NCBI GenBank assembly: GCA_031289095.1
Contig: JAITQD010000117.1
Span: 1 to 55,771, forward strand
Direction: 5' to 3'
Length of the DNA stretch: 55,771 nt
From: Azoarcus sp.
GTDB lineage: Bacteria; Pseudomonadota; Gammaproteobacteria; Burkholderiales; Rhodocyclaceae
Position 1 is the stretch's first letter. Every line of letters begins with the position of its first letter. The notes under the pieces are model-generated. The model was not told where the DNA came from. It worked only from the letters and a program-made list of their open reading frames with translations, and searched no databases. Shown piece after piece: positions 5,170-30,272 of this stretch. The position numbers were made by a program, and so were the translations under genes.

Positions 5170-5233
5170 GTAGGTTCTCCTCGACTGACGGGTTCGCCCG
5201 CACCTGCGGGCAATCGGTAATTATATCTCTCTC

Positions 5234-5270
5234 GAAAAAATATAAACCCCGTCATGCACGGGGTTTATAT
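5234..5270 (-). terminator. Terminator after phaB
   Basis: A perfect 13-bp stem (ATATAAACCCCGT with ACGGGGTTTATAT, 5-base loop) is followed on the minus strand by six T residues. It lies about 65 bases past the phaB stop and separates phaB from phaR transcription. Confidence 0.85.
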
Positions 5271-5335
5271 CCCACGCATGACGGGGTTCTCAGGTTTCCG
5301 GGCCGCGAAACGACCCACAAACCGGAGATGACGGC

Positions 5336-6079: not shown

Positions 6080-6184
6080 TGATCTGATCCTCTTCAGAAA
6101 TAATCGTGCCCGGAGCCCCAGCGGGGTTCCGGCCCAGTCATGCGGCGAGCAACGATGTGTCATGGTGCGTCGCAAAACCCGCGC

Positions 6185-6190
6185 ATTATA
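6185..6190 (-). promoter_or_regulatory. Candidate -10 box for phaB
   Basis: A perfect TATAAT reads on the minus strand about 105 bases upstream of the phaB start and just downstream of the phaC terminator. No good -35 lies at the right distance (GTTTTT region). It would give phaB its own transcription start. Confidence 0.4.
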
Positions 6191-6205
6191 GGCGAAGCGC
6201 GCAGG

Positions 6206-6242
6206 AAAAAAACCAGCGGGGCGACACGGACATCGTCGCCCC
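6206..6242 (-). terminator. Terminator after phaC
   Basis: On the minus strand GGGGCGAC and GTCGCCCC pair around a 9-base loop. A run of seven T residues follows five bases later. The stop of phaC lies just upstream. Confidence 0.8.
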
Positions 6243-6262
6243 CGCCGATCGAAGGCCAGCGT

Positions 6263-8008
6263 TCAGGCCCGCGCTTTCACGTAGCGACCGGGCGCCGGTT
6301 CGCCCGGCTCGTACTTCGTGCTGCCGAGCCTGCCGCGCGCTGGCACCTGACGGCCATCGAACGCCTTCAGCCACTCCGTCCAGTGCGCCCACCAGCTTCC
6401 CGGGTGTTCTTCCGCCCCCGTCAGCCATTCGTCGGGCGAGGTGATCGTCTGCGCGCTTGTCCAGTAGCTGCGCCGGTTCTTCGCGACCGGGTTGATGGTG
6501 CCGGCAATGTGACCGCTGGCCCCGAGCACGAAAGTGGTATCGCCCCCCATCAAGGCGCGTCCGAGGTAGGACGTCTTCCACGGCACGATGTGGTCTTCAC
6601 GCGCCGCGAAGAAGTAAACCGGCACGTCGATCTTGCCGAGATCAACCTTCTGCCCGAGCACAGTCAACCGTCCTGGCAAGCGCAAATTGTTTTCGAGATA
6701 CATGTTGCGTAAATACCACGCCAGGAACGGCCCCGGCAGGTTGGTCGCGTCCGAATTCCAGTACAGCAGGTCGAACGCCTTCGGGGTGCCGCCCTTGAGA
6801 TAGTTGCTGACCACGTATTGCCAGACGAGATCGTTGGCGCGCAGAAAGGAGAACACGCTGGCGAGTTCCTGCCCGCGCATCAGTCCGCCCTTGCCCATGG
6901 CGGCCTCGCGCGCGCTCACGCTGGCCTCGTCGACCAGACAGCCGATTTCACCGGTATCGGAAAAGTCCAGCAGCGTGGTCAGGAAGGTCACGCTGGCGAC
7001 GGGGTCTTCGCCGCGCGCTTTCGCCACCGCGAGCGCAGTGGCGAGGATGGTGCCGCCGACGCAGAAACCGAGCACGTTGGGCTTCTTGACCTTGGTGATG
7101 CTGCGCACCACTTCCAGCGCCGTGAGCGGCCCTTCCTGCACGTAGTCGTCCCAGGTCTTGGTGGATTCCGAGGGCCCCGCGTTCTTCCAGGACACCAGGA
7201 ACACGGTGTGGCCCTGGCTGATGGCGTAGCGCACAAAGGAATTTTCCGGTTGCAGATCCAGGATGTAGTACTTGTTGATGCTCGGCGGCACGATCAGGAG
7301 CGGCGTCTGCACCACTGTCTCGGTGAGCGGCGAGTACTGGATCAACTGGATCAGGTCGTTTTCGTAGACCACCGCGCCCGGCGTGATGGCGAGATTGCGC
7401 CCGACCTCGAACACGCTCTCGTCGGTCATCGACACCCGCCCTTTTTCGAGGTCGGAAAGCAGGTTCTGGATGCCGCGCGTGATGCTTTCACCCTTGGTTT
7501 CGAGCGCGGTGTGGATGAATTCCGGATTGGTGGCGGCAAAATTGCTCGGCGCCAGCGCATCAATGTACTGCCGGGTCAGGAATTGCAGGCGCGCCTTGGC
7601 CCGCCCGTCGTTGAGCGGCACGCTGTCGGCGGCTTCGCGCAGAAAGCTGGAATTGATCAGGTACGCTTGGCGCAGATAGTCGAACATCGGGTTCGACGCC
7701 CATTCCGGCGACGCGAACCGCTTGTCGCCAGCCTCGGGCGAAACGACTGGCGTGACCGTCTCGCCGGGTTTGCGCGCGGCCATCGACGACCACAAAGCCA
7801 TGTGATTGGTGGCGAATTCCTGCTGGAGCCGCAACAGGGTTTCGGGGTCAGGCAGGGACAGACCCGGCGCCGCCGCGCCCGTCGCGTCCTGCATGGCGAC
7901 CTGCTGTTTGGTCAGAGTTTCAAAAAAGCCGCGCGCAATCGTCTGCCCGGCCTGCATCATGGCTTGTATGGCCGCCGCCTGTTGCTTGCTTGTGTCGTCG
8001 TCAGACAT
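6263..8008 (-). CDS. phaC: Class I poly(R)-hydroxyalkanoate synthase PhaC
   Basis: Polymerises (R)-3-hydroxyacyl-CoA into PHA at the granule surface. The 581-residue length suits class I. The PhaC N-terminal domain covers roughly 90-270. The alpha/beta-hydrolase core has the lipase-like box GFCVGGT with nucleophile C316, close to Cys319 of the Cupriavidus enzyme. The catalytic Asp lies in AAREDHIVPW and the general-base His in GASGHIAG. PSINKYYILDL and YLRNMYLENN are class I features. The start is the ATG at 8008, preceded by a strong GGGAGGAG ribosome site; the longer open frame upstream lacks one. It lies upstream of phaB but is separated from it by a terminator. Confidence 0.95.
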   Translation of the reverse strand: MSDDDTSKQQAAAIQAMMQAGQTIARGFFETLTKQQVAMQDATGAAAPGLSLPDPETLLRLQQEFATNHMALWSSMAARKPGETVTPVVSPEAGDKRFASPEWASNPMFDYLRQAYLINSSFLREAADSVPLNDGRAKARLQFLTRQYIDALAPSNFAATNPEFIHTALETKGESITRGIQNLLSDLEKGRVSMTDESVFEVGRNLAITPGAVVYENDLIQLIQYSPLTETVVQTPLLIVPPSINKYYILDLQPENSFVRYAISQGHTVFLVSWKNAGPSESTKTWDDYVQEGPLTALEVVRSITKVKKPNVLGFCVGGTILATALAVAKARGEDPVASVTFLTTLLDFSDTGEIGCLVDEASVSAREAAMGKGGLMRGQELASVFSFLRANDLVWQYVVSNYLKGGTPKAFDLLYWNSDATNLPGPFLAWYLRNMYLENNLRLPGRLTVLGQKVDLGKIDVPVYFFAAREDHIVPWKTSYLGRALMGGDTTFVLGASGHIAGTINPVAKNRRSYWTSAQTITSPDEWLTGAEEHPGSWWAHWTEWLKAFDGRQVPARGRLGSTKYEPGEPAPGRYVKARA

Positions 8009-17509: not shown

Positions 17510-19429
17510 TCACCCGTCGGCGCGGCTTTCCAGTTCTTCCCAACGCGCGAGGGCGGCATTGAGTTCGCGCCCGATTTCATCCAGGCGCTCGCCGAGCCGG
17601 GCCACTTCCTGTGGCGCATCGCGGTATAGCGCCGGATCGGCCAGACGCGCCTGAAGCGCAGCCTCCTCACTTTCGAGCACGCCGATGCGACCGGGCAAGG
17701 CTTCGAGTTCACGCTTTTCATTGAAACCGAGCCTGTCGCCGCGTCCGGAAACCGGAACGGCCTTGCCCGGCGTCGCAGCGCGCCCGGCATTGTCTCCTCC
17801 GGCGCGGCGGGCGGATTCGCGCGCCGCTTCACGCTCGTCGCGCACGCGCCGCCATTCTTCGTAGCCGCCGGCATATTCTTCCCAATAGCCATCGCCCTCT
17901 GCGGCGATCACCTGGGTCACAACGTTGTCAAGAAAAGCACGGTCGTGGCTGACGAGGAACAGGGCGCCGTCGTAGCCGGAAAGCAGTTCTTCGAGCAGAT
18001 CAAGGGTTTCGATGTCGAGGTCGTTAGTTGGCTCATCAAGCACCAGTACATTGGCGGGACGGGCGAACAGGCGCGCCAGCAACAGGCGGTTGCGTTCGCC
18101 GCCCGAGAGCGAACGCACCGGCGAGCGCGCGCGTTGTGGCGCGAACAGAAAGTCGCCCAGATAGCCGATGACGTGTTTTCTGTCGCCGCCGATTTCAATG
18201 TAATCCGAGCCGGGGCTGATGACTTCGGTGAGCGGCAGGTCGGGATCGAGCTGGGCGCGCATCTGGTCGAAATAGGCGACCGACAGGCGTGCGCCGCGCC
18301 GGATGTTGCCCGCATCGGGAAGCAATTCCCCCAGGATCAGCTTGAGCAACGTGGTCTTGCCCGCGCCGTTCGGCCCCATGATGCCCACCCGGTCGCCGCG
18401 CAGGATGCGGGTGGAAAAGTCGCGCACGACCGTTTTGTCACTATAGCTTTTGCAGACGTGCGTCAGTTCGGCCACCATCTGACCGCTTTTTTCGCCACGG
18501 TCGAGCGCCAGTCGCGCCTGTCCGAGCCGGTCGCGGCGCGCAATTCGTTCCCGGCGCAAGGCTTCAAGCCGCCGCACCCGGCCTTCGTTGCGGGTGCGGC
18601 GCGCTTCCACGCCTTTGCGAATCCACACTTCTTCCTGCGCGAGCAGTTTGTCGAAACGGGCGTTCGCCTTGGCCTCAGCGTCCAGTTCCGCAGCCTTGCG
18701 GCGCTGGTAGTCGGAAAAACTTCCCGGATGACTTGTCAGCCGTCCCCGGTCGAGTTCGACGATGCGGGTGGCGACGCGATCCATGAATACCCGGTCGTGG
18801 GTGATGACGACCACGGCCCCGGCGAACGACAGGATCAGCCCTTCGAGCCACAAGATGCCGTCGAGATCGAGATGGTTTGTCGGCTCGTCGAGCAGCAGCA
18901 GACGCGGTTCGGCCACCAGCGCCCGCGCCAGCGCTACCCGCTTGACGCCGCCCCCCGAAAGGCTGGCGACCGGCGCATCCGCCGATAGCCCGAGCGTGAC
19001 GAGCGCCTGTTCGACGCGCTGGTTCAACCGCCAGCCGTTGGCGGCCTCAACCGCTTGTTGCAAAACCGTCAGCCGTTCCAGCGCAGCCGGATCGCCGCCT
19101 TCAGCCACCGCAGCCATCGCCGCATGCCAGTCAACGAGCAGGCGGGCAACGTCGCCCAGGCCGTCGGCCACGGTGGCGAACACGTCACGGTCGAGCGGAA
19201 AATCCGCTTCCTGCGGCACGCAGGCAACGGTGAGGCCCGGCTGCCGCCAAATTGCGCCGTCATCAAGCGTGGCCTGCCCGGCCAGGGCACGCAACAGGCT
19301 GGACTTTCCCGCGCCGTTGCGCCCGATCAGCGCAACCCGCTCGCCAGCATCGAGTTGGAAAGAGGTGTGATCGAGAAGGTCAACGTGGCCGTAGGCAAGG
19401 CAGGCGTCGTCGACGGTCAGAAGCGGCAT
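17510..19429 (-). CDS. uup: ABC-F family ATPase Uup
   Basis: Cytosolic tandem ATPase of the ABC-F group, with no membrane domain, acting on ribosomes or branched DNA intermediates. The 639 residues hold two ABC domains. The first has GRNGAGKSS, signature LSGGGVKRV, and Walker B LLLLDEPTNHLD. The second has GPNGAGKTT, LSGGERNRL and VLVLDEPTNDLD. An Arg/Lys-rich linker (ARRTRNEGRVRRLEALRRER) lies between them. A C-terminal coiled coil at about 560-635 is the Uup-specific part. It lies downstream of a TolC-family gene on the same strand, 159 bases away. Uup is preferred over EttA or YheS because of the coiled-coil tail. Confidence 0.9.
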   Translation of the reverse strand: MPLLTVDDACLAYGHVDLLDHTSFQLDAGERVALIGRNGAGKSSLLRALAGQATLDDGAIWRQPGLTVACVPQEADFPLDRDVFATVADGLGDVARLLVDWHAAMAAVAEGGDPAALERLTVLQQAVEAANGWRLNQRVEQALVTLGLSADAPVASLSGGGVKRVALARALVAEPRLLLLDEPTNHLDLDGILWLEGLILSFAGAVVVITHDRVFMDRVATRIVELDRGRLTSHPGSFSDYQRRKAAELDAEAKANARFDKLLAQEEVWIRKGVEARRTRNEGRVRRLEALRRERIARRDRLGQARLALDRGEKSGQMVAELTHVCKSYSDKTVVRDFSTRILRGDRVGIMGPNGAGKTTLLKLILGELLPDAGNIRRGARLSVAYFDQMRAQLDPDLPLTEVISPGSDYIEIGGDRKHVIGYLGDFLFAPQRARSPVRSLSGGERNRLLLARLFARPANVLVLDEPTNDLDIETLDLLEELLSGYDGALFLVSHDRAFLDNVVTQVIAAEGDGYWEEYAGGYEEWRRVRDEREAARESARRAGGDNAGRAATPGKAVPVSGRGDRLGFNEKRELEALPGRIGVLESEEAALQARLADPALYRDAPQEVARLGERLDEIGRELNAALARWEELESRADG

Positions 19430-19588
19430 GGCGATTCCCGGAACCGTGAAGGCGGCATTCTAACGGCGGGCACGCCGGAATCGGCGAAACATCTCCTGTG
19501 GAGGCGATCCGCCCTGGTTCGGTCATCCCCGGCGCGGCCCCTCGGGCTGACGGAAACGACATCGCCCCATATCGACACAGGGCCGCTA

Positions 19589-20938
19589 TTATTCGACGCT
19601 TGCCAATAACCAGCCGTTGAAACGGGCAATTTCTTCTTCGTTCAGTTTGCCCACCAGCGCCAGCAGCCTCAGGCGCGACAGCACGTATTGGTAACGCCCG
19701 CGGTTGAGGTCGCGCCGGACGGTGGCGAGATTCTGCTCGGCGGTCAGAATGTCCAACGTCGTGCGCTTGCCAGCCTGAAAGCCTTTTCTCGTCGAAGCCA
19801 GCGCCTGCTCGGCGGATTTCGCCGCCATCTCATAGGCCGTCACCCAGTGCACGCCCTGGGTCACGCCATCGAATTCCTTCCTGATCTGCAAACCGACTTC
19901 ACGCCGCGTCGCTTCCAGTTGCTGACGCGCCTTGTCCAGTTCGGCCCGAGCCTGACGCACCACGGAAACCGTATCACCGCCGGAAAAAATCGGCACGTTG
20001 AACTGCACGCCCACCAGGTTTCCGTCGGTCTTGGTGTCAATGGTGTTGCTACTGTCGCTCTTGTTCTTGAAGCGTTGCGCGATCAGGTCGGCAGTGGGCA
20101 AATGGCCGGAGAGCGCCTTGTTGACCTGTTTGTCGGCCGCCACAGCAGCAGCGTTCAGCGCAATGAGTTGCGGGTTGACCTCCTCGGCCATCCGAATCCA
20201 GTCTTCGAGTCGGGCCGGATCGGGCGGCGTGAGCGGCATGCGTCCGGGATCGAGACGGGCCAGTTGCGTCAGGGGACGGTTGATGATGGCCTTGAGGGCA
20301 TCGTAAGCGTAATTGAGGCGGTATTGCTGCTCGATGGCCTGCGCTGCGGCCAGATCGAGGCTCGAACGGGCTTCGTCGATGTCGGTGCGCGTGCCCGCGC
20401 CGGACTGGAACGCTTTCTGGGCATAGTCGAGCTGCGCCAGATAAGCATCACGCTGCCCCTTGATGACGTTCAGTTCCGTTTCCTCGAGCAGGACGTCGAA
20501 ATACGCCGTGCCGATGCGGGCGCCAACATCCTGTTCCGCCCACTTCAGGCTGGCCTCGGCTCCCGCAACCTGTGCCTGCGCCTGCCGCCAGCCAGCATAA
20601 CTGCCAGGCCGGAACAGGGGCTGACGCAAGCCCAGGGTATAGTTGTAGCTGCGGTAATCTGAGTCGTCCTTGGAGGTGCCTCCCGCGTATTTGGTCTCTC
20701 TATCGGTCGAATTGCGGGCATTGGAGCCGTTAAACGACACGTTGGGCAGCAATTGCGCCAGCGCCTGCGGCTCCGCCTCGCGCCGGGCGCGAGTATCGGC
20801 CTGCGCGGCCAGGAAAGTAGCGTCGGCCTGTACCGCCTCGCGGTACAGGCTCAACAGATCGTCGGCCCGAACCGGCGAGGCCACCAGCACCGCGCCGCCC
20901 AACAGGGCGACGGTCAGGCGAAAAACACATGCTTTCAT
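19589..20938 (-). CDS. TolC-family outer membrane channel protein (copy 1)
   Basis: 449 residues with a signal peptide (MKACVFRLTVALLGGAVLVA, cleaved near VRA-D) and two repeated OEP halves. This suits a trimeric channel used by type I secretion or efflux pumps. Features are LSLYREAVQADATFLAAQAD at the mature start, YNYTLGLRQPLFRPGSYAGW, VGVQFNVPIFSGGDTVSVVR, and GFQAGKRTTLDILTAEQNL, the helix-turn typical of TolC. A GAGAGG ribosome site precedes the ATG at 20938. It is divergent from the ABC transporter and upstream of uup. No inner-membrane or adaptor partner is adjacent, so its pump is encoded elsewhere. Confidence 0.9.
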   Translation of the reverse strand: MKACVFRLTVALLGGAVLVASPVRADDLLSLYREAVQADATFLAAQADTRARREAEPQALAQLLPNVSFNGSNARNSTDRETKYAGGTSKDDSDYRSYNYTLGLRQPLFRPGSYAGWRQAQAQVAGAEASLKWAEQDVGARIGTAYFDVLLEETELNVIKGQRDAYLAQLDYAQKAFQSGAGTRTDIDEARSSLDLAAAQAIEQQYRLNYAYDALKAIINRPLTQLARLDPGRMPLTPPDPARLEDWIRMAEEVNPQLIALNAAAVAADKQVNKALSGHLPTADLIAQRFKNKSDSSNTIDTKTDGNLVGVQFNVPIFSGGDTVSVVRQARAELDKARQQLEATRREVGLQIRKEFDGVTQGVHWVTAYEMAAKSAEQALASTRKGFQAGKRTTLDILTAEQNLATVRRDLNRGRYQYVLSRLRLLALVGKLNEEEIARFNGWLLASVE

Positions 20939-21158
20939 TGAATGAATCCCTCTCGTTCTTTATTTCATTATTTTCGTCCCGGCGATATAACACCACCCAT
21001 GGCCCACGCCGTCAAGCCTTCATCATCCGCAACGCCATCCCGCTGGCGCGATTGGATGATCACCATCCTCCACGCACGGTGGTGCTCATACTGTCTCCTG
21101 ACTGTTTGCCATCCATGATGGCAGTAATATCCGACGTAATTTGTGTTTTCTCCCCAGG

Positions 21159-21180
21159 TTATATTGTTCCGCTCATATAA
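21159..21180 (+). promoter_or_regulatory. Candidate operator upstream of ABC transporter
   Basis: TTATAT and ATATAA form an inverted repeat with a 10-base spacer, a spacing that suits a dimeric activator or repressor. It ends 15 bases before the candidate -35. Sulfur-transporter operons are commonly CysB/Cbl controlled, but I cannot assign the binder. Confidence 0.3.
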
Positions 21181-21195
21181 AAACAACTTTTTATT

Positions 21196-21225
21196 CTGAC
21201 TTTTACTAAAGCAGACCGCTAGACT
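21196..21225 (+). promoter_or_regulatory. Candidate promoter of ABC transporter operon
   Basis: CTGACT and TAGACT are separated by 18 bases, each with four of six consensus matches. The -10 ends 33 bases before the ATG of the binding-protein gene, which has an AAGGA ribosome site. Confidence 0.35.
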
Positions 21226-21258
21226 GGCTGTCTTCCGTTATCTCCGAAGGAAACCGCC

Positions 21259-22290
21259 ATGCCGTCTGGTAAACACGATCCGTCTTCGCCCAGCCCAAAA
21301 CGGCGCGCGCTGTTGGCCGCCGCTTCCGCCGCGCTGGCCATGCCCCTGATCGGCCTCGGCGGTCGCGCCTGGGCGCAGACCGCGCCGAAAAAGCTCACGC
21401 CGCTGTCGTTCGCCTGGAACCAGACTTCCTTCTGCCTGACGCCGATCGCCGTCGCCAAGGAAACCGGCATTTTCGAGAAGAACGGCCTGGATGTCACCTT
21501 GGTCAATTACTCGGGTTCCACCGATCAACTGCTGGAATCCATCGCCACCGGCAAGTCGGACGCGGCGGTAGGCATGATTTTCCGCTGGCTGAAGCCACTC
21601 GAAGCCGGTTTCGACGTCAAGATAGTTGCGGGCCTGCACGGCGGCTGCGTGCGTCTGATCGGTTACAAGCCGGGGGGCGTCACCAGACTCGCCGACCTGC
21701 GCGGCAAGACTATCGGCGTGCCCGACCTCGGCGCGCCCGCGACGCACTTTTTCAGCGTCTACTTGAAAAAGAACGGCATCGACCCGGAAAAGGAAGTTTC
21801 TTGGCGGGTTTATCAGCGCGACCTGCTCGGCCTCGCGGCGGAAAAGGGCGAAATCCACGCCGTCGCCGACAGCGACCCCATGGCGTTCAAGATCGAACGC
21901 GATTCCAAGGGCGCTTTCGTGGAACTGGCGACCAACAATCAGGGTGAGTACCACGACAAGGCATGCTGCGTGATCGGCATCAACGGCAACCTCGTGCGCA
22001 CCAACAAGCCGGTCGCGGCGGCGCTGGTGCATTCGCTGGTCGACGCTTACGACTGGACAGCGCACCACATCGAGGAGAGCGCGCAAATCTTCCTCAAGTA
22101 CACCACGAACATGACGCTCGGCGAGCTGAAGGAACTTTACGGGACGCTTAACCTGCACCATCACCCGGTTGGCACCGATCTGCGCGATGAAATCGCCGCT
22201 TACGCGCAAGACTTCAAGAAACTGGGCGTGCTCAAGGCCAGCACCGATCCGGCGAAATACGCCGAGCACGTGTTCGTGAAGGTGCTCTGA
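21259..22290 (+). CDS. ABC transporter substrate-binding protein, SsuA/TauA/NMT1 family
   Basis: Periplasmic receptor of a nitrate/sulfonate/taurine-type importer, 343 residues. The signal (PKRRALLAAASAALAMPL... GRAWAQ) has paired arginines and could use Tat or Sec. The mature protein shows the family pattern: PIAVAKETGIFEKNGLDVTLVNYSG, GKSDAAVGMI and DLRGKTIGVPDLGAPATHFF. It resembles aliphatic-sulfonate and thiamine-precursor binders, but the ligand cannot be read from sequence. It is first in a three-gene importer operon (27 bases to the permease). The metY/methyltransferase/cupin group downstream makes an organosulfur ligand plausible. Confidence 0.88.
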   Translation: MPSGKHDPSSPSPKRRALLAAASAALAMPLIGLGGRAWAQTAPKKLTPLSFAWNQTSFCLTPIAVAKETGIFEKNGLDVTLVNYSGSTDQLLESIATGKSDAAVGMIFRWLKPLEAGFDVKIVAGLHGGCVRLIGYKPGGVTRLADLRGKTIGVPDLGAPATHFFSVYLKKNGIDPEKEVSWRVYQRDLLGLAAEKGEIHAVADSDPMAFKIERDSKGAFVELATNNQGEYHDKACCVIGINGNLVRTNKPVAAALVHSLVDAYDWTAHHIEESAQIFLKYTTNMTLGELKELYGTLNLHHHPVGTDLRDEIAAYAQDFKKLGVLKASTDPAKYAEHVFVKVL

Positions 22291-22316
22291 GCGCCCGCCG
22301 GAGAAAGGAAATTGCC

Positions 22317-23423
22317 ATGAGTTCGAGCGCGATTGCCACCGCTGCCGCGCCCGGTTTCGAGCGCAAGCTGCCGCCCCCTGCCAGCAGGGCGGCGAGCACC
22401 GTGGAAGTTTTCCCAGCGGCGAATGTTGCATCGCTCGAAACCCGGGCGGCGTTCCACCCGCACTGGCAGGGACTCGCCGCCGCCTTGGCCTGGGGCTTCA
22501 TGGCGGCGGTTACACTGGCGTGGCCCAACCAGCCCGCCGGATTCGTCGAGGACTGGCCCTACACCACGGAGTTCGGCATCGCCACAGGCGTCGTCGCGGC
22601 AATCTGCGCTTTCCTCGCTTTTGCTGCGAGTGCGCACGTCCGCCTGCTGCATCGCGCTTGCGCCGTGTTCCGCCACGGCGCGCCATGGATCATCGTCTCC
22701 GCCCTTCTCCTGGCGCTGTGGGAAATTTTGACCGCCAAGACGGGCGTTTTGCCGCCGCCGTTCTTTGCGCCGCCGTCAAGCCTCATCGACGCTTACGCGA
22801 ACGACTACGCACGCTTGGCCGACAGCACCTGGAATTCGGTGAAGCTGCTGCTTGAAGGGGTGGCCTGGGGCGCAGCAATCGGTTTTACGGTCGGGGTTGC
22901 CATCGGCTGGTCGCGTGCGGTCAATTACTGGGTGCACCCGATCCTGCGCTTTCTCGGCCCCCTGCCGCCCACGGCGCTGCTGCCGATCGCCTTTTTCTTT
23001 TTCCCGTCGAGCCACGCGGCTTCCGTCTTTTTGATCGCGCTGGCGACCGGGTTCCCGGTGGCGATTCTGTCGTGGTCGGGCGTAGCGGGCGTCAACAAGG
23101 CGTACTACGACGTGGCGCGCACGATGGGCGCTTCCGAGTGGTTCCTGATTTTCCGCGTCGCCATTCCCGCCGCCTTGCCACAGGTATTCGTCGGTCTGTT
23201 CATGGGTTTCGGTTCGTCGTTCGTGGTGCTGATCGTGGCCGAGATGATGGGCGTCAAGTCGGGGCTGGGCTGGTATCTCACCTGGGCGCAGGGCTACGCA
23301 TCCTATGTGAACATGTATGCGGCGCTGATTGTGATGACCGTCATTTTCTCCAGCCTCATTTCGCTGCTTTTCGCCGTGCGCGACCGCGTGCTCGTCTGGC
23401 AGAAGGGAATCGTCAAATGGTAG
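22317..23423 (+). CDS. ABC transporter permease, SsuC/TauC type with extra N-terminal helices
   Basis: Inner-membrane channel subunit of the importer. It has 368 residues against about 250-280 for usual SsuC or TauC. The C-terminal ~260 residues are the normal domain, with the cytoplasmic EAA loop ARTMGASEWFLIFRVAIP near residues 261-280 that docks the ATPase. The extra ~110 N-terminal residues carry two further hydrophobic segments (LAAALAWGFMAAVTLAW and VVAAICAFLAFAAS) and a soluble Pro/Ala-rich start. Its last codons overlap the ATPase start (ATGGTAG). Confidence 0.88.
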   Translation: MSSSAIATAAAPGFERKLPPPASRAASTVEVFPAANVASLETRAAFHPHWQGLAAALAWGFMAAVTLAWPNQPAGFVEDWPYTTEFGIATGVVAAICAFLAFAASAHVRLLHRACAVFRHGAPWIIVSALLLALWEILTAKTGVLPPPFFAPPSSLIDAYANDYARLADSTWNSVKLLLEGVAWGAAIGFTVGVAIGWSRAVNYWVHPILRFLGPLPPTALLPIAFFFFPSSHAASVFLIALATGFPVAILSWSGVAGVNKAYYDVARTMGASEWFLIFRVAIPAALPQVFVGLFMGFGSSFVVLIVAEMMGVKSGLGWYLTWAQGYASYVNMYAALIVMTVIFSSLISLLFAVRDRVLVWQKGIVKW

Positions 23424-24238
23424 TGGCCGCCACGGCAGAAAAACCGCGCCCGGAAGACATCGCGCCGCCCGCAGCGGCGCATGGCGCTTCAAGGATTCGC
23501 GTCGAGCGCGTGAGCCATGGGTTCGACGCACCTTCCGGTCGGCTGGAGGTGCTGGAAGACGTCGATCTCGACGTTGCGCCCGGCGAATTCGTCGCCCTGC
23601 TCGGCCCCAGTGGCTGCGGCAAGTCGACGCTTCTGCGCCTCGTGGCCGGGCTGGAACCCGCCAGCGCGGGCGCGATTTTCCAGGACGATGGCCCGATCAC
23701 CCGCCCCGATCCCTCGCGCATTGTGGTGTTCCAAGATCCGACGCTCTTTCCCTGGCGCACGGTGTGGGACAACGTGGCGCTGGGCTTGCAGGCGCAGGGC
23801 ATTCTGAAGCAGGAAAAAACCCGGGTGAACGCGGCCCTGCGCAAGGTGGGACTGGAGGGGTTCGCCACGTCCTATCCGCACCAGTTGTCCGGCGGCATGG
23901 CGCAGCGCGTCGCCTTGGCGCGGGCGCTGGTCAATAACCCTAAACTGCTGATTCTCGACGAACCGCTGGGCAAGCTCGATTCGCTCACCCGCCTGGAAAT
24001 GCAGGGCGAACTCGTGTCGCTGTGGCAGAAAAACGGCTTTTCGGTGCTGCTCGTCACCCACGATGTCGAGGAGGCGCTGTTCCTGGCGCAGCGGGTGGTG
24101 ATCTTCAGCCCGCGTCCGGCGAAAATCATTACCGAAATCACCATCGACCGCCCTTACCCGCGCCACCGCGACGATCCGGTACTCACCGGCCTGCGGCACG
24201 AAGTGCTGAACCAGTTGGGGTTGGGGAAAAGCTGGTAG
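23417..24238 (+). CDS. ABC transporter ATP-binding protein, SsuB/TauB type
   Basis: 273-residue ATPase that powers the importer. It shows Walker A GPSGCGKST, Q-loop FQDPTLFPWRTVWDNV, signature LSGGMAQRVALARAL, Walker B LLILDEPLGKLD and switch His in LVTHDVEEAL. This is the nitrate/sulfonate/taurine subclass (TC 3.A.1.16/17 type). The start is the ATG at 23417 overlapping the permease stop. The frame is open upstream but that part only shadows the permease. An unusual 40-residue N-terminal leader rich in Ala, Pro and Glu precedes the ABC domain. Confidence 0.92.
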   Translation: MVVAATAEKPRPEDIAPPAAAHGASRIRVERVSHGFDAPSGRLEVLEDVDLDVAPGEFVALLGPSGCGKSTLLRLVAGLEPASAGAIFQDDGPITRPDPSRIVVFQDPTLFPWRTVWDNVALGLQAQGILKQEKTRVNAALRKVGLEGFATSYPHQLSGGMAQRVALARALVNNPKLLILDEPLGKLDSLTRLEMQGELVSLWQKNGFSVLLVTHDVEEALFLAQRVVIFSPRPAKIITEITIDRPYPRHRDDPVLTGLRHEVLNQLGLGKSW

Positions 24239-24337
24239 CCTGCCCGCTTCTGCGCGTGCCGAGCATCCGGCGCGATCCGGCGCGCGCATTCTATCGTTCT
24301 ATACTCTTGTGTTTTCCATTTTCAGCCGTACTTCGCC

Positions 24338-25702
24338 ATGTCCAAAACCGCCGCATCCCGAAAATCCCCGAAAAAAGAATCCGCCCAAAAAGTCCGACCT
24401 GGCCAGCCCGCCGCGTCCGAAACCGCCGCACCACCCCTGTCTTTTGACACCCTCTGTATCCAGGGCGGCTACGATCCCAAGGTGAGCGAGCCGCGCATTC
24501 TGCCCATCGTCCAGAGTACGACCTACAAGTACGATGACATCGACCACGTCAACCGGATCATGACGTTGCAGGCGTTCGGCCACAAATACAGCCGAACCAG
24601 CAACCCCACCGTGGCCGGGTTCGAGGCGCGGATGAACTTGCTCGAAGGCGGCACGGCGACGGTGGCGACGGCCTCGGGGCAGGCCGCGAACCTGTTGGCG
24701 ATCATCACCATTGTGCGGCCCGGCGACCATATCCTGGCGGCGAGCCAGCTCTACGGCGGCACTTTTACTCTGCTCAATTCCACCCTGAAGAAGTTCGGGA
24801 TCGAGACGACCTTTTTCGATCCCAACGCCTCGCGCGCCGACGTTGAAAAGCTCGTCCGCCCCGAAACCCGGCTCATTTTCGGCGAGACCCTCGGCAACCC
24901 CGGCCTCGCCATTCTCGATTTCGACAAGCTCGCCCACATCGCCAAAAAGCACGGCATTCCCTTCATCGTCGACAACTCGCTGGCGACTGCCTGGCTGTGC
25001 CAGCCGTTCAAACACGGCGCGAATATCGTCACTTATTCCGCGACCAAATACGTCGACGGCCACGCCACCAGCATCGGCGGTGCGGTCATCGACGGCGGCA
25101 ACTTCGACTGGGCAAACGGCAAATTCCCCGATTTCACGACGCCCGATCCCACCTACAACGGCGTGATCTACACGCAGAACTTTCCGCAGACGGCGTTTCT
25201 CGTCAAGGCGCGCGCCCAATTCCTGCGCGACTTCGGCGGTTGCCTGAGTCCGCTCAACGCCTTTTTGTTCAACCTCGGGCTTGAAACCCTGCACCTGCGC
25301 ATGCCGCGCCATGGCGAAAATGCGCTCGCGCTCGCCCGCTTCCTTGCCAAACACTCCAAGGTGGCGTGGGTCAATTACCCCGGTCTTGATGCCACCGGCA
25401 AAAAGCGCATCGAAAAGTATTTTCGCCACAAAAATGGTAGTGGCATTCTCACCTTTGGCATCAAGGGCGACTTGGATTCGGTGCGCCGCTTTGTGAAGCG
25501 GTTGCGGGTGGCCGCGCTCGTGGTGCATGTCGCCGACGCCCGCACCGGCGTACTGCATCCGGCCTCGTCCACCCACGCGCAGATGAACGAAAAGCAACTG
25601 CTCGCCGCCGGCATCACCCCGGATATGATCCGGGTCTCCGTCGGCACCGAGGACGTCGCCGACCTGATCGCCGATTTCGACCAGGCACTGGCCGCCGCCT
25701 GA
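24338..25702 (+). CDS. metY: O-acetylhomoserine sulfhydrylase-type PLP enzyme
   Basis: Cys/Met-metabolism PLP enzyme, 454 residues. The Schiff-base lysine is K237 in YSATKYVDGH. PLP contacts include SGQAANLLAI near 113, the ring-stacking Tyr in QLYGGTF, and D212 in IVDNSLATAWL. The closest functional type is O-acetylhomoserine (thiol)-lyase, which makes homocysteine from sulfide or methionine from methanethiol. Methionine gamma-lyase uses the same fold and cannot be excluded. A Lys/Ala/Ser-rich extension of about 30 residues precedes the domain. It lies 99 bases after the ABC transporter and 32 before the methyltransferase, suggesting one sulfur operon. Confidence 0.85.
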   Translation: MSKTAASRKSPKKESAQKVRPGQPAASETAAPPLSFDTLCIQGGYDPKVSEPRILPIVQSTTYKYDDIDHVNRIMTLQAFGHKYSRTSNPTVAGFEARMNLLEGGTATVATASGQAANLLAIITIVRPGDHILAASQLYGGTFTLLNSTLKKFGIETTFFDPNASRADVEKLVRPETRLIFGETLGNPGLAILDFDKLAHIAKKHGIPFIVDNSLATAWLCQPFKHGANIVTYSATKYVDGHATSIGGAVIDGGNFDWANGKFPDFTTPDPTYNGVIYTQNFPQTAFLVKARAQFLRDFGGCLSPLNAFLFNLGLETLHLRMPRHGENALALARFLAKHSKVAWVNYPGLDATGKKRIEKYFRHKNGSGILTFGIKGDLDSVRRFVKRLRVAALVVHVADARTGVLHPASSTHAQMNEKQLLAAGITPDMIRVSVGTEDVADLIADFDQALAAA

Positions 25703-25734
25703 CCCCATCCTGTTTTCTACTCCGCCGCAATCCC

Positions 25735-26697
25735 ATGCAGATCGACACCGCCCGTTACCTGAAACTCGACGCCGCCCCCGTCCGCCTGAAGGACACCTTG
25801 GACATTCTCGTCACCGAGCACGCCTTTCTGCCCAGCGTCGATGAAATGCTCTCCGACTGGGTGGCCACCATCGCCACGCCGGCCTTCAAGTTGCTGCGCC
25901 AGCAAAAAGGCGTGCAGGCCGGCTTTTGCAGCATCGGCACCGGCACGGGGCTGGACGCCCTCGCCGCCATCGAGACGCTGGGCGCAGCACGAGTCGGCAT
26001 CACCGACGTGCACGCAGACGTGGTCGACGCCGCTGCGGGCAACATCCGCAAAAACCTGAAGAATCCAGATGACATCGTACTGGACGCCGGTTTCGGCGAC
26101 CTGCTGGAGCCCTTGCGCCACAGCGACAGCGACGCGCAGCCGCATTACGACCTGATCTACGAAAACCTGCCCAACATTCCCATCGACGACGCCGGAAAAG
26201 CCGCCGCCGCGCGCAAAAGCTCCGGCCACATTCCGCCCCGCACGGAAGCCGTCCCCGAACGCCTGCGCCGGAACCTGCTGGCGCTGCATTACGTCGCGCT
26301 CCTGAAGGCGAAGCCGTTTCTGACCCCCGACGGCGCAGTGCTGTCGCTCGTCGGCGGGCGCATTCCGCTCGACGTTTTCCAGGAAATGGGCCGGCTCGCC
26401 GGTTATCGTTCCGAAATTTTCACCTACGGCTGGAAAATCCAGACCGATCCGGAAGAAATCATCGGCGGCCACCTCCGTCAACAGGAAGAAGGCTTCGGCC
26501 CTTACCACTTCTACCGCGCAGACCGCCTTGCCACAGCCTTCTCAGGCGTGAGCCTGGAGACTTCGGGCCGCGACGCCCACGCCATTGAGCGCCTTCTCGC
26601 GCCCGACGAACTGTCCCCGGAGGAAGCTCTCTCCACCTGGAAGAAGGGCGAAGTCATCGGGCATACCGTTGTAGCCTTGCGCTCGACCCCCGTGTGA
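25735..26697 (+). CDS. SAM-dependent methyltransferase resembling methionine S-methyltransferase domain
   Basis: 320-residue class I methyltransferase. SAM motif I is CSIGTGTGLDALAA at 65-78, with an acidic residue in ITDVHADVV (D91). After strand 4, where N-methyltransferases have NPPY, it reads YENLPNIP at 142-149. Then come HYVALLKAKPFLTPDGAVLS and VGGRIPLDVFQEMGRLAGY. The order (P-rich post-strand-4 loop, long helix, GGRP-like motif) recalls, from memory, the methyl-transfer domain of plant MMT and bacterial MmtN, which make S-methylmethionine. That is inference. The stop overlaps the cupin start by 4 bases (GTGA), so the two are co-translated. Confidence 0.75.
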   Translation: MQIDTARYLKLDAAPVRLKDTLDILVTEHAFLPSVDEMLSDWVATIATPAFKLLRQQKGVQAGFCSIGTGTGLDALAAIETLGAARVGITDVHADVVDAAAGNIRKNLKNPDDIVLDAGFGDLLEPLRHSDSDAQPHYDLIYENLPNIPIDDAGKAAAARKSSGHIPPRTEAVPERLRRNLLALHYVALLKAKPFLTPDGAVLSLVGGRIPLDVFQEMGRLAGYRSEIFTYGWKIQTDPEEIIGGHLRQQEEGFGPYHFYRADRLATAFSGVSLETSGRDAHAIERLLAPDELSPEEALSTWKKGEVIGHTVVALRSTPV

Positions 26698-27332
26698 ATA
26701 CCCTGTCCCCTGCCGCCGCGCTCGCGGCCATTGGCGCAGTGCGCCAGCATTTCACAGCCCGCCTCGTTGCGGGCCGCGAAGCGCCCGCCATCGCGGCGGA
26801 ACTCGAAAACGTGCTGGCCCTGCTCGACACCGTGGACTTTTCCCATGCCGACGAAAAGCACCTGCGGGCCAGCGGTCACCCGGTCATCCGCCAGTTGCAG
26901 CAGGCCCACGTGCGGGGCGGCGGCGCTTCGACAGAAGCAGTGTTCGGCGCCTTTCTGCCCCACCTCGACGCCCTGCCTTGGCGCTACAGCTACGAACCCC
27001 GGCCCGATGCGCCCGACATCGGCGCGCGCATGGCCTGGGCGGAACTCGTCGGCCCCATCGCGCCATTCCACAGCAGCAAAGTCTGTCTTGGGTTGACCGC
27101 CATCGGCCCTCGCCTGCTCTATCCGCAGCACTATCACCCGGCGGTGGAAACTTATCTTGTCGTTTCCGGCACGGCATCTTGGACGGCTGACGGCAGCACC
27201 CGGCGACATCCGCCGGGCGCGCTGATCCTGCACCCCTCGAACATCGTGCACGCAATGGAAGCCGGCGACGAACCACTGCTTGCCGCCTATGCGTGGACGG
27301 GCGACGTGGAAACGCTATCGGCTTATATTTGA
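26694..27332 (+). CDS. DMSP-lyase-like cupin (DddQ/DddK/DddL family)
   Basis: 212-residue protein whose C-terminal half is a cupin. Motif 1 is YPQHYHPAVETYLVVSG with H146, H148, E152 and Y154; motif 2 contains H186 in SNIVHAM. In DddQ and DddK DMSP lyases the metal is held by His, His, Glu and His, with a Tyr as the base that abstracts the alpha proton; the spacing 0, 2, 6, 8, 40 is reproduced exactly here. The N-terminal ~120 residues are helical, as in DddQ/DddL. The GTG start at 26694 overlaps the methyltransferase stop. It probably cleaves DMSP or a related sulfonium, but substrate is unproven. A strong terminator follows. Confidence 0.78.
   Translation: MNTLSPAAALAAIGAVRQHFTARLVAGREAPAIAAELENVLALLDTVDFSHADEKHLRASGHPVIRQLQQAHVRGGGASTEAVFGAFLPHLDALPWRYSYEPRPDAPDIGARMAWAELVGPIAPFHSSKVCLGLTAIGPRLLYPQHYHPAVETYLVVSGTASWTADGSTRRHPPGALILHPSNIVHAMEAGDEPLLAAYAWTGDVETLSAYI
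27297..27326 (+). repeat. 30-bp segment duplicated at 49830-49859 (copy 1, inside cupin gene)
   Basis: The 30 bases encoding the end of the cupin (TGDVETLSAY) recur without mismatch 22.5 kb away, next to a transposase remnant. This copy is in the intact gene. Confidence 0.85.
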
Positions 27333-27353
27333 ATGTCTGAGTGCAGAAAATAC

Positions 27354-27385
27354 AAATGGCGCAACTTTTACGTTGCGCCATTTTT
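27354..27385. terminator. Bidirectional terminator between cupin and tolC copy 2
   Basis: AAATGGCGCAAC and GTTGCGCCATTT form a perfect 12-bp stem with a 6-base loop. T residues follow on the plus strand and a T-rich tract on the minus strand. It sits between two convergent genes and can serve both. Confidence 0.92.
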
Positions 27386-27420
27386 CATGCAAAGCCGCGC
27401 GCTGCGCGGGGTTCTGCCCG

Positions 27421-28893
27421 TTATCTGTACGACGGCTCAGAGGTGAGCAAGGCGCTCTTGTTGACTTCGAGCGGCGCAGGCGCATCAGCCGGGCACATGT
27501 CGGCAGGATCGACGGTGTCACGATTCTGTCCGGCGTCTTTCGCCGCAGGCAAATCTTCACGCACGACGCCGAGCGCATGCAGAAGCTGGCCCGTACCAGC
27601 CAGGGTGCGGGCCTGTGCAACCAGCAGATCGTAGCGCGCATTGGTATAGGCACGGCGCGCATCGAAATACTCGTTTTCGCTGTCAAGCAGGTCGAGCAGG
27701 GTGCGCTGACCAATATCGAACTGACGGCGGTAGGCTTCGCGGGTCTTGGCGGCCGCTGCCTGGTATGTTTCGAGATAACCCAGCTTCTCGGCCAGACTGT
27801 GGGTGTCCTGGTAGGCGATGGTCAGGGTCTGGCGCAGATCGCGGCAGGCTTTCTCACGCAAATCCCTGGCCTGATCCACTTCTTTCCCAGCCTGATGGAC
27901 ACGGGCCTGGTCGGAACCACCACGGAAAATATTGAAGGAGAACAACAGTTCAACAAGACTTTCGCGCCGGTTGCCCTTGAGACCGCTGTCGCTGTCGTCG
28001 TTGTTGATGTTGTGGTTGACACCCGTACTCGCATGCAGGCTGAGTTTGGGATGGTAGGCGGAACGGGCCACATCGCGTTGCGCCAAGTTGGCGCGCACGT
28101 TTTCAATGGCGGCATTGAAGGCGGGGTTGCTCACGTAGGCCGTGCTCAAGGCAGCAACGACGTTCGCTGGCAACTGCACGTCGGCGAGGCTGTCCGCCAA
28201 CGGCGGCAACTGGTCGACCGGCAGTTCGCCCACGAGGCGCTGGTAACGGGAACTGACGTCATGCAGGTTCGAGATTTCGGTCAGCAGGTTGGATTCGGAC
28301 AAGGCCAGCCGTCCCTGCGCCTGATCGCGGTCGACAGCCCGGCTCACCCCCGCCGTGGTGCGGTTGCTGATCTGGTCGTAGATTTGCTTGTGAGCGACGT
28401 AATTCGCCTTGGCGTGCTCGACCAGTTGCCGTTGACGCTCGACGTCACCATAGGCGCGTATCACTTCGAGACCGGTGTTTTCCGAGGCGTCCAGCAACTC
28501 GTAATAGCGCACGAGCCGGGTATAGCCCATGCGACTGACCTCGCCGCTCGTGGCGAAGCCGTCGTAGATCATTTGGTTGAGTTCCAGCGCGGCGCCGGAG
28601 TAATTCCAGTCGTCCTTTTCCTCGTGAGGATCCTTGCGCCACCTGTGCCCAGCCGAGGCGTTCAGGTCGACCCGCGGAAGATAACCGCCACGCGCGACAT
28701 CCTGCGCCGAGGTCGCGGCCTGGTATCCATGCCAACGCGCCTGTACGTCGGGGTTGCTGGACACAGCCTTGCGCACAGCATCCAGCACTGCTCCCCTGGA
28801 GGGATCAGCAGGCGCCTGCGCACTCGAGACCCCCGGCAAGGCCTGTAGGGTCGAAGCCACCGCTAAACAGATTAGCGTCTTCATCCTGCTCAT
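27421..28893 (-). CDS. TolC-family outer membrane protein, LapE-like (copy 2)
   Basis: 490-residue outer-membrane channel with a signal peptide (MSRMKTLICLAVASTLQALP, cut near SSAQA). The two OEP repeats include VRKAVSSNPDVQARW, GYLPRVDLNASAGHRW, FNIFRGGSDQARVHQA and RRQFDIGQRTLLDLLDSENE. It resembles the LapE/AggA subgroup that works with large-adhesin type I secretion. It is divergent from lapG-lapD, which supports a LapE role, but LapB, LapC and the adhesin LapA are absent from this window. The last ~50 residues are a Pro/Asp/Ala-rich tail. Confidence 0.86.
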   Translation of the reverse strand: MSRMKTLICLAVASTLQALPGVSSAQAPADPSRGAVLDAVRKAVSSNPDVQARWHGYQAATSAQDVARGGYLPRVDLNASAGHRWRKDPHEEKDDWNYSGAALELNQMIYDGFATSGEVSRMGYTRLVRYYELLDASENTGLEVIRAYGDVERQRQLVEHAKANYVAHKQIYDQISNRTTAGVSRAVDRDQAQGRLALSESNLLTEISNLHDVSSRYQRLVGELPVDQLPPLADSLADVQLPANVVAALSTAYVSNPAFNAAIENVRANLAQRDVARSAYHPKLSLHASTGVNHNINNDDSDSGLKGNRRESLVELLFSFNIFRGGSDQARVHQAGKEVDQARDLREKACRDLRQTLTIAYQDTHSLAEKLGYLETYQAAAAKTREAYRRQFDIGQRTLLDLLDSENEYFDARRAYTNARYDLLVAQARTLAGTGQLLHALGVVREDLPAAKDAGQNRDTVDPADMCPADAPAPLEVNKSALLTSEPSYR

Positions 28894-29318
28894 GGTGCTA
28901 CCTCCAAGTGTTCAAAAGCTTCTCCGTACGCAAAAAACGAACGGAACTCAATGTCGATCATATTATAGTATTTTGTGAGTCTACGGCTAGCCCGGAAACA
29001 GCACCGCCCGTCACTCGAAGCCCCCGTCGCCTACGGTTCAATGCACGCATTGAACACGCATTGAACCTCACGACTTTCGGAAAATACCACATTTCCATAC
29101 TTCTCACCGGACTGCACCGCAAGTACGTCTGTTTTTTGTGACGACGCAACACATCCCCAATCGCCCTCGTACGTTGCCAGAGCAGGTCTGGTAACCGCGC
29201 ATCGCAAAGATGCGGCAGCGCATGTGTCGTATTTACGCAAATACCGTGAAATATTTCATGCTCACTCGCTCCGAAGCGGAAGAATATCTCGGTATCAGTC
29301 ACCGCTGTCATTTTCAAA
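28894..29318. other. Divergent intergenic region between tolC copy 2 and lapG
   Basis: No gene is seen in these 425 bases; the short open frames lack ribosome sites and family features. AT-rich stretches at about 28960-28980 and 29240-29260 are possible promoter DNA. A direct and inverted repeat block lies at 29035-29067. Confidence 0.5.
29035..29067. repeat. Tandem 11-bp direct repeat with inverted arm upstream of lapG
   Basis: ACGCATTGAAC occurs twice in tandem (29045-29055 and 29056-29066). GGTTCAATGC at 29035-29044 is the inverse of GCATTGAACC at 29058-29067. Thus three half-sites of one motif lie within 33 bases, as expected of an operator. The binder is unknown. Confidence 0.5.
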
Positions 29319-30272
29319 ATGTCCGCATCGGCGCCCTCCCTGCAACGGGTTCGATATGCTCCCGCCTGCTCCCCGCACCCCCCGCCCCCTCCATGGGCAA
29401 CGTGGCTGCGGCGGTTTGCGGTTGCCGCCTGCGTTTGTGCGACGGGCTGGGCGCAGGCGGCAACCGACTTCGACCGCATGGAGCAACTGACCGAGGCGCA
29501 ATACGGCAAGATCGCCGCTGCCACGGTCAGATCCTGGCGCGGCATGATCGAGAGCTCCCGCGCGCTCCCTGAACGTACGAAACTCGAACGTAGCAACGAT
29601 TTCATCAACAGGAGCGTGTTCTACGAAAGCGATATCGTGGTCTGGGGGCAAGTGGATTACTGGGCCACTCCGCTGGAGCTTTTCGGCAAACAGGCCGGCG
29701 ACTGCGAAGACTTCGCCATCGCCAAGTACGTGACCCTGCGCCTACTGGACATTCCCGTGCGCAAGCTGCGCCTCGTTTATGTGCGGGCGCGGCTCGGCGA
29801 CAGCAAGAAGCTCCAGGCTCATATGGTGTTGAGCTACTTTGAAACACCGACGTCCGACCCGCTGGTGCTGGACAACCTTACCACCCAGATTCATCCGGCG
29901 ACTCAGCGCTCCGACCTGTTCCCGGTATTCAGTTTCAATCACGAAGGGCTATGGATGGAGGGAGAGAAAACATCCTCCACAAACCCCACGGCGCGGCTGT
30001 CGCGCTGGCGCGATGTGCTCCAGCGCATGCGCAAGGAAGGGTGGGATCCCTCGCTGGCGTCGCTCAGCGCCGAATCGATACTGTCGTGGAGATCGGCGAA
30101 ATTCCGGCCTTCGTTCCGGTCACAGAAGATGGCCAAGTCCAAGTACCGGCATCTGGTACGCAAAGTGATCCGCTCGCGCCTGTCTTCCAAGAAAGTGGCC
30201 AAATCAAGACCGGCATGGAAGACGAAAGTGGCAAAATCCCGTTTCACGTTGCAGAAGGCGCGCAGACGATGA
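29319..30272 (+). CDS. lapG: LapG-type periplasmic cysteine protease with basic C-terminal tail
   Basis: Transglutaminase-like protease that clips the N-terminus of large LapA-type adhesins to release biofilm cells; LapD sequesters it when c-di-GMP is high. 317 residues. A signal-like segment ends near WAQA (46). The triad is C129 in AGDCEDFAIAKY, H168 in QAHMVL and D185 in VLDNLT. The family normally ends near RWRDVLQRMRKEGW. Here about 60 more residues follow, very rich in Lys, Arg and Ser, with repeats of the type AKSK/VAKSR. No clear ribosome site precedes the ATG at 29319. lapD follows after 61 bases. Confidence 0.88.
   Translation: MSASAPSLQRVRYAPACSPHPPPPPWATWLRRFAVAACVCATGWAQAATDFDRMEQLTEAQYGKIAAATVRSWRGMIESSRALPERTKLERSNDFINRSVFYESDIVVWGQVDYWATPLELFGKQAGDCEDFAIAKYVTLRLLDIPVRKLRLVYVRARLGDSKKLQAHMVLSYFETPTSDPLVLDNLTTQIHPATQRSDLFPVFSFNHEGLWMEGEKTSSTNPTARLSRWRDVLQRMRKEGWDPSLASLSAESILSWRSAKFRPSFRSQKMAKSKYRHLVRKVIRSRLSSKKVAKSRPAWKTKVAKSRFTLQKARRR

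Follow-up and report, generated by a model that had tools for sequence, protein, structure and literature searches.

Enzymes for the synthesis and cleavage of dimethylsulfoniopropionate (DMSP) are known chiefly from the sea, for the most part as products of separate genes. Here we describe three adjoining genes in a 55,771-nucleotide contig of Azoarcus sp. (the window, meaning the whole of this stretch), which encode a MetY-type enzyme, a methyltransferase (MT) whose closest solved fold is that of the methionine S-methyltransferase MmtN, and a cupin resembling DddQ. According to the available text of the MmtN study, the known MmtN groups are about 30% identical to one another, methionine is bound by Glu127, Arg132 and Glu250, and Pro169 and Arg183 form an ion pocket (PMC9135737). 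For DddQ, the available text names Tyr120, His123, His125, Glu129, Tyr131 and His163 as catalytic residues and gives the motifs of cupin DMSP lyases as GX5HXHX3,4EX6G and GX5PXGX2HX3N (PMC4437653). The three-gene set, which occurs in certain gut, soil and purple bacteria, resembles an as yet undescribed pathway acting on a sulfur compound, and no description of the metY–MT–cupin combination was found in the titles and abstract openings listed by searches of the openly accessible literature.

A conserved three-gene cassette

The assembly comprises 126 contigs and 2.52 Mb, the window being its contig C67, and the genome is 98% complete. In the genome collection, the named genomes nearest to it are metagenome-assembled ones of Azoarcus sp. 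and Zoogloeaceae, which, to judge from the isolate names, presumably come from the termite gut. The cassette and the hairpin that follows it are:

24338–25702, + strand: pyridoxal-phosphate (PLP) enzyme of the MetY clade (O-acetylhomoserine (OAH)/O-acetylserine (OAS) sulfhydrylase family), 454 aa; PF01053, TIGR01326
25735–26697, + strand: class I S-adenosylmethionine (SAM) methyltransferase with the MmtN fold and a YENLPN motif, 320 aa; AlphaFold2 (AF2) model
26694–27332, + strand: DddQ-like cupin (DMSP_lyase family), 212 aa, GTG start; PF16867, AF2 model
27354–27383, no strand assigned: terminator-like hairpin of 12 pairs between the cupin gene and a converging outer-membrane-efflux gene

A sequence-only reading of this DNA had described three same-strand genes with gaps of 32 (metY to MT) and −4 bases (MT to cupin), closed by a strong terminator. 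Coordinates of the open reading frames (ORFs) reproduce the genes and gaps exactly, and the hairpin after the cupin gene is stable (−18.8 kcal/mol, z −4.6; none of 200 shuffles equally stable), being reported by the terminator pattern scan on the − strand only. Control of the cassette by a riboswitch was considered and rejected: Rfam searches at 13 loci gave only one glycine riboswitch and one tRNA, and no Rfam match up to E 1 was obtained within positions 19000–30000 of the window.

One scan of named public genomes yielded 36 loci with a relative of the MT. In twenty of them, from Beta- and Alphaproteobacteria, the MT is accompanied by both the cupin and a MetY-type gene, and 16, from Zoogloeaceae and Rhodomicrobium, keep the metY–MT–cupin order of the window. 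Recurrence of one gene order at 16 of the 36 loci, in two bacterial classes, makes the cassette more than a chance arrangement; both the operon-like cluster proposed from the sequence and the conserved neighbourhood that had been named beforehand as its touchstone were thus found. Four loci, all from Rhodoblastus, have MT–cupin followed by two MetY-like genes, three have MT–cupin and two have metY–MT. Partial loci occur near contig ends (L071, L073 and L074) and away from them (L065, L069 and L072), and a single-contig genome of the family (G559, L129) carries all three genes in the same order. Another ORF is inserted within the cassette in four loci, with the gene order intact. A YiiX-family amidase-like gene lies between MT and cupin in G013 (L025, 682–1320), and a methyladenine glycosylase gene lies between metY and MT in G006 (L014, 890–1453). 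Separately, the Thiocapsa MT was found split in two, the pieces being separated by about 1.3 kb that contains another ORF, perhaps through insertion of a mobile element (L091, 4295–6639).

The distribution among relatives was examined in 60 genomes, 21 of the window's genus (its own included) and 39 others. The MT is present in 11 of the 21 and in none of the 39, and the cupin in the same 11 and, as a contig-end fragment, in G005. MetY at ≥80% identity was found in 10 of 40 genomes drawn; in the eleventh MT-bearing genome, G002, the contig starts inside metY (L059). The nine cassette-free members of the genus have, at the cut used, only MetY copies of 42–46% identity. The MT is rare: among 398 Pseudomonadota genomes sampled, that of the window was the only one to have it, and within its family it was present in 13 of 297 genomes. 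Pairwise distances of MetY, MT and cupin correlate across 21 loci (r 0.915, 0.822 and 0.875) and across the 17 left when the four loci of Rhodoblastus, with a MetY that does not belong to the cassette clade, are omitted (r 0.823, 0.911 and 0.850); none of 2000 permutations reached these values in either run. The parallel divergence of the three proteins shows joint inheritance or transfer, not function.

Folds and conserved residues of the encoded proteins

The cupin scored 83.6 bits against PF16867 DMSP_lyase (cut-off 27), and DddQ was first among its PDB sequence matches. Its AF2 model, built from 24 sequences, had a predicted local distance difference test (pLDDT) score of 94.5, and the six best PDB matches of this model were all DddQ (E 6.7e-17 to 5.7e-16; template modelling (TM) score 0.76–0.85 by target), followed by DddK (E 2.5e-8). 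The six catalytic residues given for DddQ in the available text cited above align to Y143, H146, H148, E152, Y154 and H180, all of which are unchanged throughout the 25 cupins from these loci; Cys131 is invariant in 24 of 24 aligned cupins. Inspected by eye against the motifs of that text, the cupin keeps HXHX3EX6G and deviates in the spacing before it and in motif 2, where its PG-x4-H spacing also occurs in DddQ 5cu1. A plasmid search with the cupin returned 35 records; none of the five inspected has a MetY or this MT beside the cupin, and one inspected record has a different SAM methyltransferase 2.6 kb away. With the MT of the window the plasmid search gave no match, and with the Photorhabdus MT only one PrmC.

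The MT does not score high enough for any curated family, its matches to PrmC (28 bits, cut-off 199) and PrmA (17 bits, cut-off 22) being weak and below all cut-offs shown; together with a confident full-length AF2 model (pLDDT 92, alignment of 32 sequences), they mark it as a class I methyltransferase. The nine best PDB matches of the model (Foldseek) were all MmtN chains (E 1.3e-12 to 2.2e-10), aligned over 298–318 columns with TM 0.52–0.58 by query and 18–20% identity, and the carbamoyl N-methyltransferase Asc-Orf2 came next (E 1.7e-9). GxGxG is present in 30 of the 32 rows of the alignment, the other two, L091 and L092, being fragments that do not include this region, and YENLPN is invariant in all 32. 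R209, K234, H185 and S162, each conserved in 31 of 31, are candidate substrate contacts. An azetidine-2-carboxylate synthase was rejected as an identity for this protein. The signatures of AzeJ/VioH are, in the available text, PFNxxGN, RxxYYxxC and FY, with GxxxG in place of GxGxG (PMC11794875); among our rows PFNxxGN and RxxYYxxC each occur in 0 of 32, the glycine motif is GxGxG, not GxxxG, and FY, counted at whatever place in the sequence, occurs in 31 of 32.

The metY product scored 375 bits against PF01053 and, over its full length, 542 bits against TIGR01326 (OAH/OAS sulfhydrylase, cut-off 495), and its best PDB sequence match was the OAH sulfhydrylase 7kb0 (E 1.9e-130). In a 45-row tree, with long branches elsewhere, the 19 cassette MetYs form a single clade (support of 100 in the Shimodaira–Hasegawa-like approximate likelihood ratio test, SH-aLRT; stem of 1.03 changes per column), which excludes housekeeping MetYs as well as the copies of Rhodoblastus. 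A second MetY, of the housekeeping type, is encoded in the same genome as the cassette copy (L002). Twenty-four positions distinguish the 19 cassette MetYs from 13 housekeeping ones; N229, D240 and A243 lie close to the lysine of SATKY, which we take to bind the cofactor, and H397 lies within the NxGDA segment. The changes include N to H, G to D and D to N, two of these near the SATKY lysine. Such clade-specific substitutions leave it a prediction that the cassette enzyme may use OAH or OAS with sulfide or a thiol.

The identities assigned earlier from the sequence therefore hold for all three genes, at the level of family or fold: an OAH-sulfhydrylase-family enzyme by the TIGR01326 score, an MMT-like methyltransferase by its closest solved fold, and a cupin that resembles DMSP lyases and has the complete active site described for DddQ. 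Placement of the MT among N- or O-methyltransferases, which had been named as an outcome that would speak against the proposal, received a mixed answer: the best profiles, PrmC and PrmA, are N-methyltransferases, matched far below cut-off, and by structure MmtN came first.

Genomic neighbours

Genes for an ATP-binding cassette (ABC) transporter, absent from the sequence-only reading, precede the cassette and end 99 bases before metY; the pattern scan listed no + strand terminator-like site in this gap between the ATPase gene and metY:

21259–22290, + strand: SsuA/NMT1-type ABC substrate-binding protein; PF09084 59.8 bits, TIGR01728 SsuA_fam 85 bits
22317–23423, + strand: ABC permease of SaoP/ntrB/SsuC/TauC type; PF00528 64.5 bits
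23417–24238, + strand: ABC ATPase, 273 aa, by start and frame; PF00005 120.8 bits

The 85 bits of the binding protein against TIGR01728 lie below the cut-off of 163.5, and none of the named models shown gave the permease a score above its cut-off. The block of transporter and cassette is flanked by two outer membrane efflux protein genes (PF02321; 19589–20938 and 27421–28893, both − strand). Orthologues of the transporter lie upstream of metY in L062 (binding protein 68%, ATPase 89% identity). In Rhodomicrobium L079 they are rearranged and follow the cupin gene, at identities of 45% (binding protein), 64% (permease) and 63% (ATPase). The permease (E 1e-50) was found in 10 of 30 relatives, namely the nine MT-bearing genomes drawn and G005, all with cassette genes, and in none of 8 other genus members and 12 genomes outside the genus.

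In L066 the place of the transporter is taken by a sulfate-permease-family gene (2732–4423) on the cassette strand, 189 bases upstream of metY. Anion-transporter-family genes are also present on the opposite strand, no more than a few kb away, in L064 (9735–11510) and L077 (2741–3958); the near-cassette anion genes of L066, L064 and L077 comprise two of the sulfate-permease family and one of the citrate/sodium-sulfate-symporter family. Further MetY-like, CBS-type and cystathionine-gamma-synthase-type genes surround the cassette in Rhodoblastus L081 or L088, and an SsuD/SfnG-like monooxygenase gene lies two genes upstream of it in Pseudothauera L134. The Rhodomicrobium neighbours include genes for another SsuA-type transporter, a 2-hydroxyacid dehydrogenase and DUF1847, and the terminal part of a GD_AH_C gene of the altronate/galactarate dehydratase type. 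Taken together, the transporter, anion-permease and sulfur-enzyme neighbours can be read as organosulfur acquisition. DUF1847 (PF08901) occurs near the cassette in both alphaproteobacterial genera (L088, 5287–5952; L081, 5336–5896; L079, 11410–12111), directly before the MT in the two Rhodoblastus loci; none of the papers listed by a literature search for DUF1847 with sulfur mentions it.

The cupin-less MT relatives have other neighbours: PALP (cysteine-synthase-like) and EamA genes in L086, L090 and L091, EamA in L085, and LysE in L083, L087 and L089. EamA and LysE are amino-acid exporters. These neighbours suggest an amino-acid-like, exported product for the cupin-less relatives, and it is on their account that an amino-acid-like substrate of the MT appears plausible. 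Two further architectures of the MT can be recognized here, one in gammaproteobacteria with PALP and EamA (L086, 1261–4301; L091, 3448–7687; L090, 5911–9340) and a LysE–MT arrangement in Pelagibius-like genomes (L083, L087 and L089, each about 5100–6969).

Interpretation of the cassette

Gene order, conservation, parallel divergence, closest folds and the conserved active site are direct observations, and the strongest pointer to a possible sulfonium chemistry is that two neighbouring genes, searched independently, gave MmtN and DddQ. We tentatively favour, with confidence that stays below even, a dedicated organosulfur module in which S-methylation is followed by cupin cleavage and tied to a dedicated MetY. 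The sulfonate-type ABC transporter would import a small organosulfur acid or amino acid. Judging from fold and neighbours, the MmtN-fold MT would move the methyl group of SAM onto the sulfur of this substrate, making a good leaving group; in the DddQ-like cupin, going by its fold and conserved residues, a metal-bound tyrosine would remove the proton alpha to the carboxylate. The cupin would thereby release dimethyl sulfide, a methyl thioether or methanethiol and leave an acrylate- or dehydroalanine-type acid, and the MetY paralogue would join the freed thiol to an O-acetylated amino acid. Alternatively, in reverse order, MetY would make a thioether that the MT and the cupin would then process. 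Given the transporters and the neighbouring genes of sulfur assimilation, we prefer scavenging to synthesis, and methionine and S-methylmethionine (SMM) are disfavoured as substrates because the cupin chemistry needs a beta-sulfonio acid.

Several points weigh against this module. Its substrate, its direction and all of its reactions are inferred, and dimethyl sulfide, if that were the product, would not itself feed MetY. In the best sequence-profile search with the MT, MmtN appeared only at E 0.25 and rank 13 of 20, and the other searches of this kind, including that with a profile of the MT C-terminal part against the PDB, recovered no MmtN. The structural match is moderate by the TM scores and identity given above, an identity that also falls short of the roughly 30% between known MmtN groups. 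By sequence the MT cannot be assigned to MmtN proper, and S-methylation of methionine would be a prediction from the closest fold. Moreover, cupin and MetY are both missing from 11 of the 36 MT loci, and transporter genes adjoin the cassette in only two of 44 loci searched, some places being counted twice. The co-occurrence of transporter and cassette within the genus may be the inheritance of one clade, because the five genus rows of the MetY tree split cassette-bearing from cassette-free members.

The conserved active site of the cupin is likewise open to more than one reading. All six residues are also present in four of four lyase-family proteins of unproven function from other plasmid contexts (Gemmobacter, Sulfitobacter, Sinorhizobium and Phyllobacterium), and at the alignment position of His163 a DddL linked to acuI carries Asn. 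Since they are shared with these four proteins and DddL departs from them, the six residues, as given in the available DddQ text, cannot tell a DMSP lyase from other cupins. In a quick tree with long branches, the 25 cupins are set off by a branch (SH-aLRT 86) that separates them from a DddL and two DddQ segments. The conserved residues do not prove that the cupin splits DMSP to dimethyl sulfide, a reaction that it may catalyse.

A more specific form of the organosulfur module is an undescribed route of sulfur salvage by which gut and terrestrial bacteria would import a beta-thio acid or amino acid. The MmtN-like MT would turn its sulfur into a methylsulfonium with SAM, solely to obtain a leaving group, the DddQ-type metal cupin would carry out the elimination and the dedicated MetY would rebuild a sulfur amino acid. 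We consider it somewhat unlikely in this complete form; if true, it would mean that sulfonium lyase chemistry also serves outside the sea and on compounds other than DMSP.

Biosynthesis of a modified non-protein amino acid is an unlikely explanation, and the one among the rivals that survives best. The PLP enzyme would make the amino acid, the MT would methylate it on S, N or O, and the cupin would be an isomerase, cyclase or lyase, with no sulfonium lyase step. The PALP, EamA or LysE neighbours of the gammaproteobacterial and Pelagibius-like MT relatives, the polyketide synthase beside the Photorhabdus relative, the weak profile matches of the MT, which point to N5-glutamine methyltransferases, and the long stem and 24 clade-specific substitutions of the cassette MetY would all agree with it. 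However, inspection by eye of 16 stretches, some places twice, revealed no biosynthetic megaenzyme or amino-acid exporter beside the cassette, and the structure searches were headed by MmtN and DddQ and not by other folds.

The route of the sequence-only reading, in which MetY makes methionine from methanethiol, the MT converts it to SMM and the cupin acts on SMM-derived DMSP, has the two top fold matches in its favour and is nevertheless improbable. SMM carries its sulfonium on the gamma carbon and is no beta-sulfonio acid, the kind of compound that DddQ chemistry needs, so that this step of the earlier proposal fits the cupin poorly; the low identity to MmtN also speaks against it. Recycling of a methyl-sulfur pool, which the sequence-only reading had suggested, would likewise be no more than a prediction. 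No enzyme set leading from SMM to DMSP was recognized by eye among the listed neighbours, with no search elsewhere in the genome. An SMM cycle was rejected as well: the sole S-methyl_trans (PF02574) match in the window's genome is MetH-like and lies in a 1192-aa frame, and no stand-alone homocysteine S-methyltransferase or other separate SMM-using enzyme was found.

Feeding of a nitrogenase-like methylthio-alkane reductase (MAR), which would reduce dimethyl sulfide from the cupin to methanethiol for methionine formation by MetY, is very improbable: a low-scoring Oxidored_nitro pair occurs in eight of the 12 genus members that carry cassette genes (in G005, the cupin fragment) and in none of the nine that lack them, and the best PDB matches of a G001 subunit (L115) are 9d9u and 9fmg (E 1.6e-52; 9FMG being a MarDK structure), but the pair was not found in the window's genome or in G003, G006 and G013, all cassette-bearing, and the G001 protein (E 1e-25) was unmatched in 18 of the 22 MT-bearing genomes chosen and matched in two genus members and two Rhodoblastus, L090 and five genus members with the pair lying outside this search. 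MAR was thus rejected as a necessary partner, there being none in the window's genome, and the cassette may work in this way in some relatives. Separately, we observed nitrogenase-like DK pairs in L115, L116, L117 and L118 (relatives G001, G007, G014 and G018). These loci include a NifH-like gene in L116 (confirmed) and L117 (by eye), SsuA-type ABC genes in L115 (binding protein confirmed) and L117 (by eye), and a protein resembling the variant radical SAM protein of L115. The L115-type system is probably MAR-like.

For the organosulfur module that we favour, the occurrence of the set in Azoarcus-like metagenome bacteria, Pseudothauera, Rhodomicrobium and Rhodoblastus provides a short, testable list of enzymes for an organosulfur pathway, together with named strains that carry them, and it bears on the role of lyase-like cupins where DMSP is not the obvious substrate.

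Comparison with known systems

The MT shares with MmtN (7VVV, 7VVW and 7VVX; available text of PMC9135737) the class I architecture, GxGxG and the nearest solved fold over approximately its full length, and differs from it in sequence, in the YENLPN motif and in adjoining MetY and cupin genes. The cupin has the whole fold of DddQ (4LA2, 4LA3, 4B29, 5CU1 and 5JSP), including the helical N-terminal part, and the six catalytic residues; it differs by an identity of 22–27% in the structural match, by its own clade and by its MetY and MT neighbours. As in the acuR–acuI–dddL operon (for example in L148), a lyase-family cupin comes last, whereas in the cassette MetY and MT replace the TetR regulator and the oxidoreductase. 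The upstream genes represent the binding-protein, permease and ATPase families of SsuABC/TauABC-type sulfonate transporters, with a binding protein and a permease that fall under the cut-offs of all named models shown. Finally, the cassette MetY belongs to the OAH (OAS) sulfhydrylase family by its full-length score above the TIGR01326 cut-off, and is set apart from housekeeping MetYs by its own clade, its long stem and its N, G and D substitutions.

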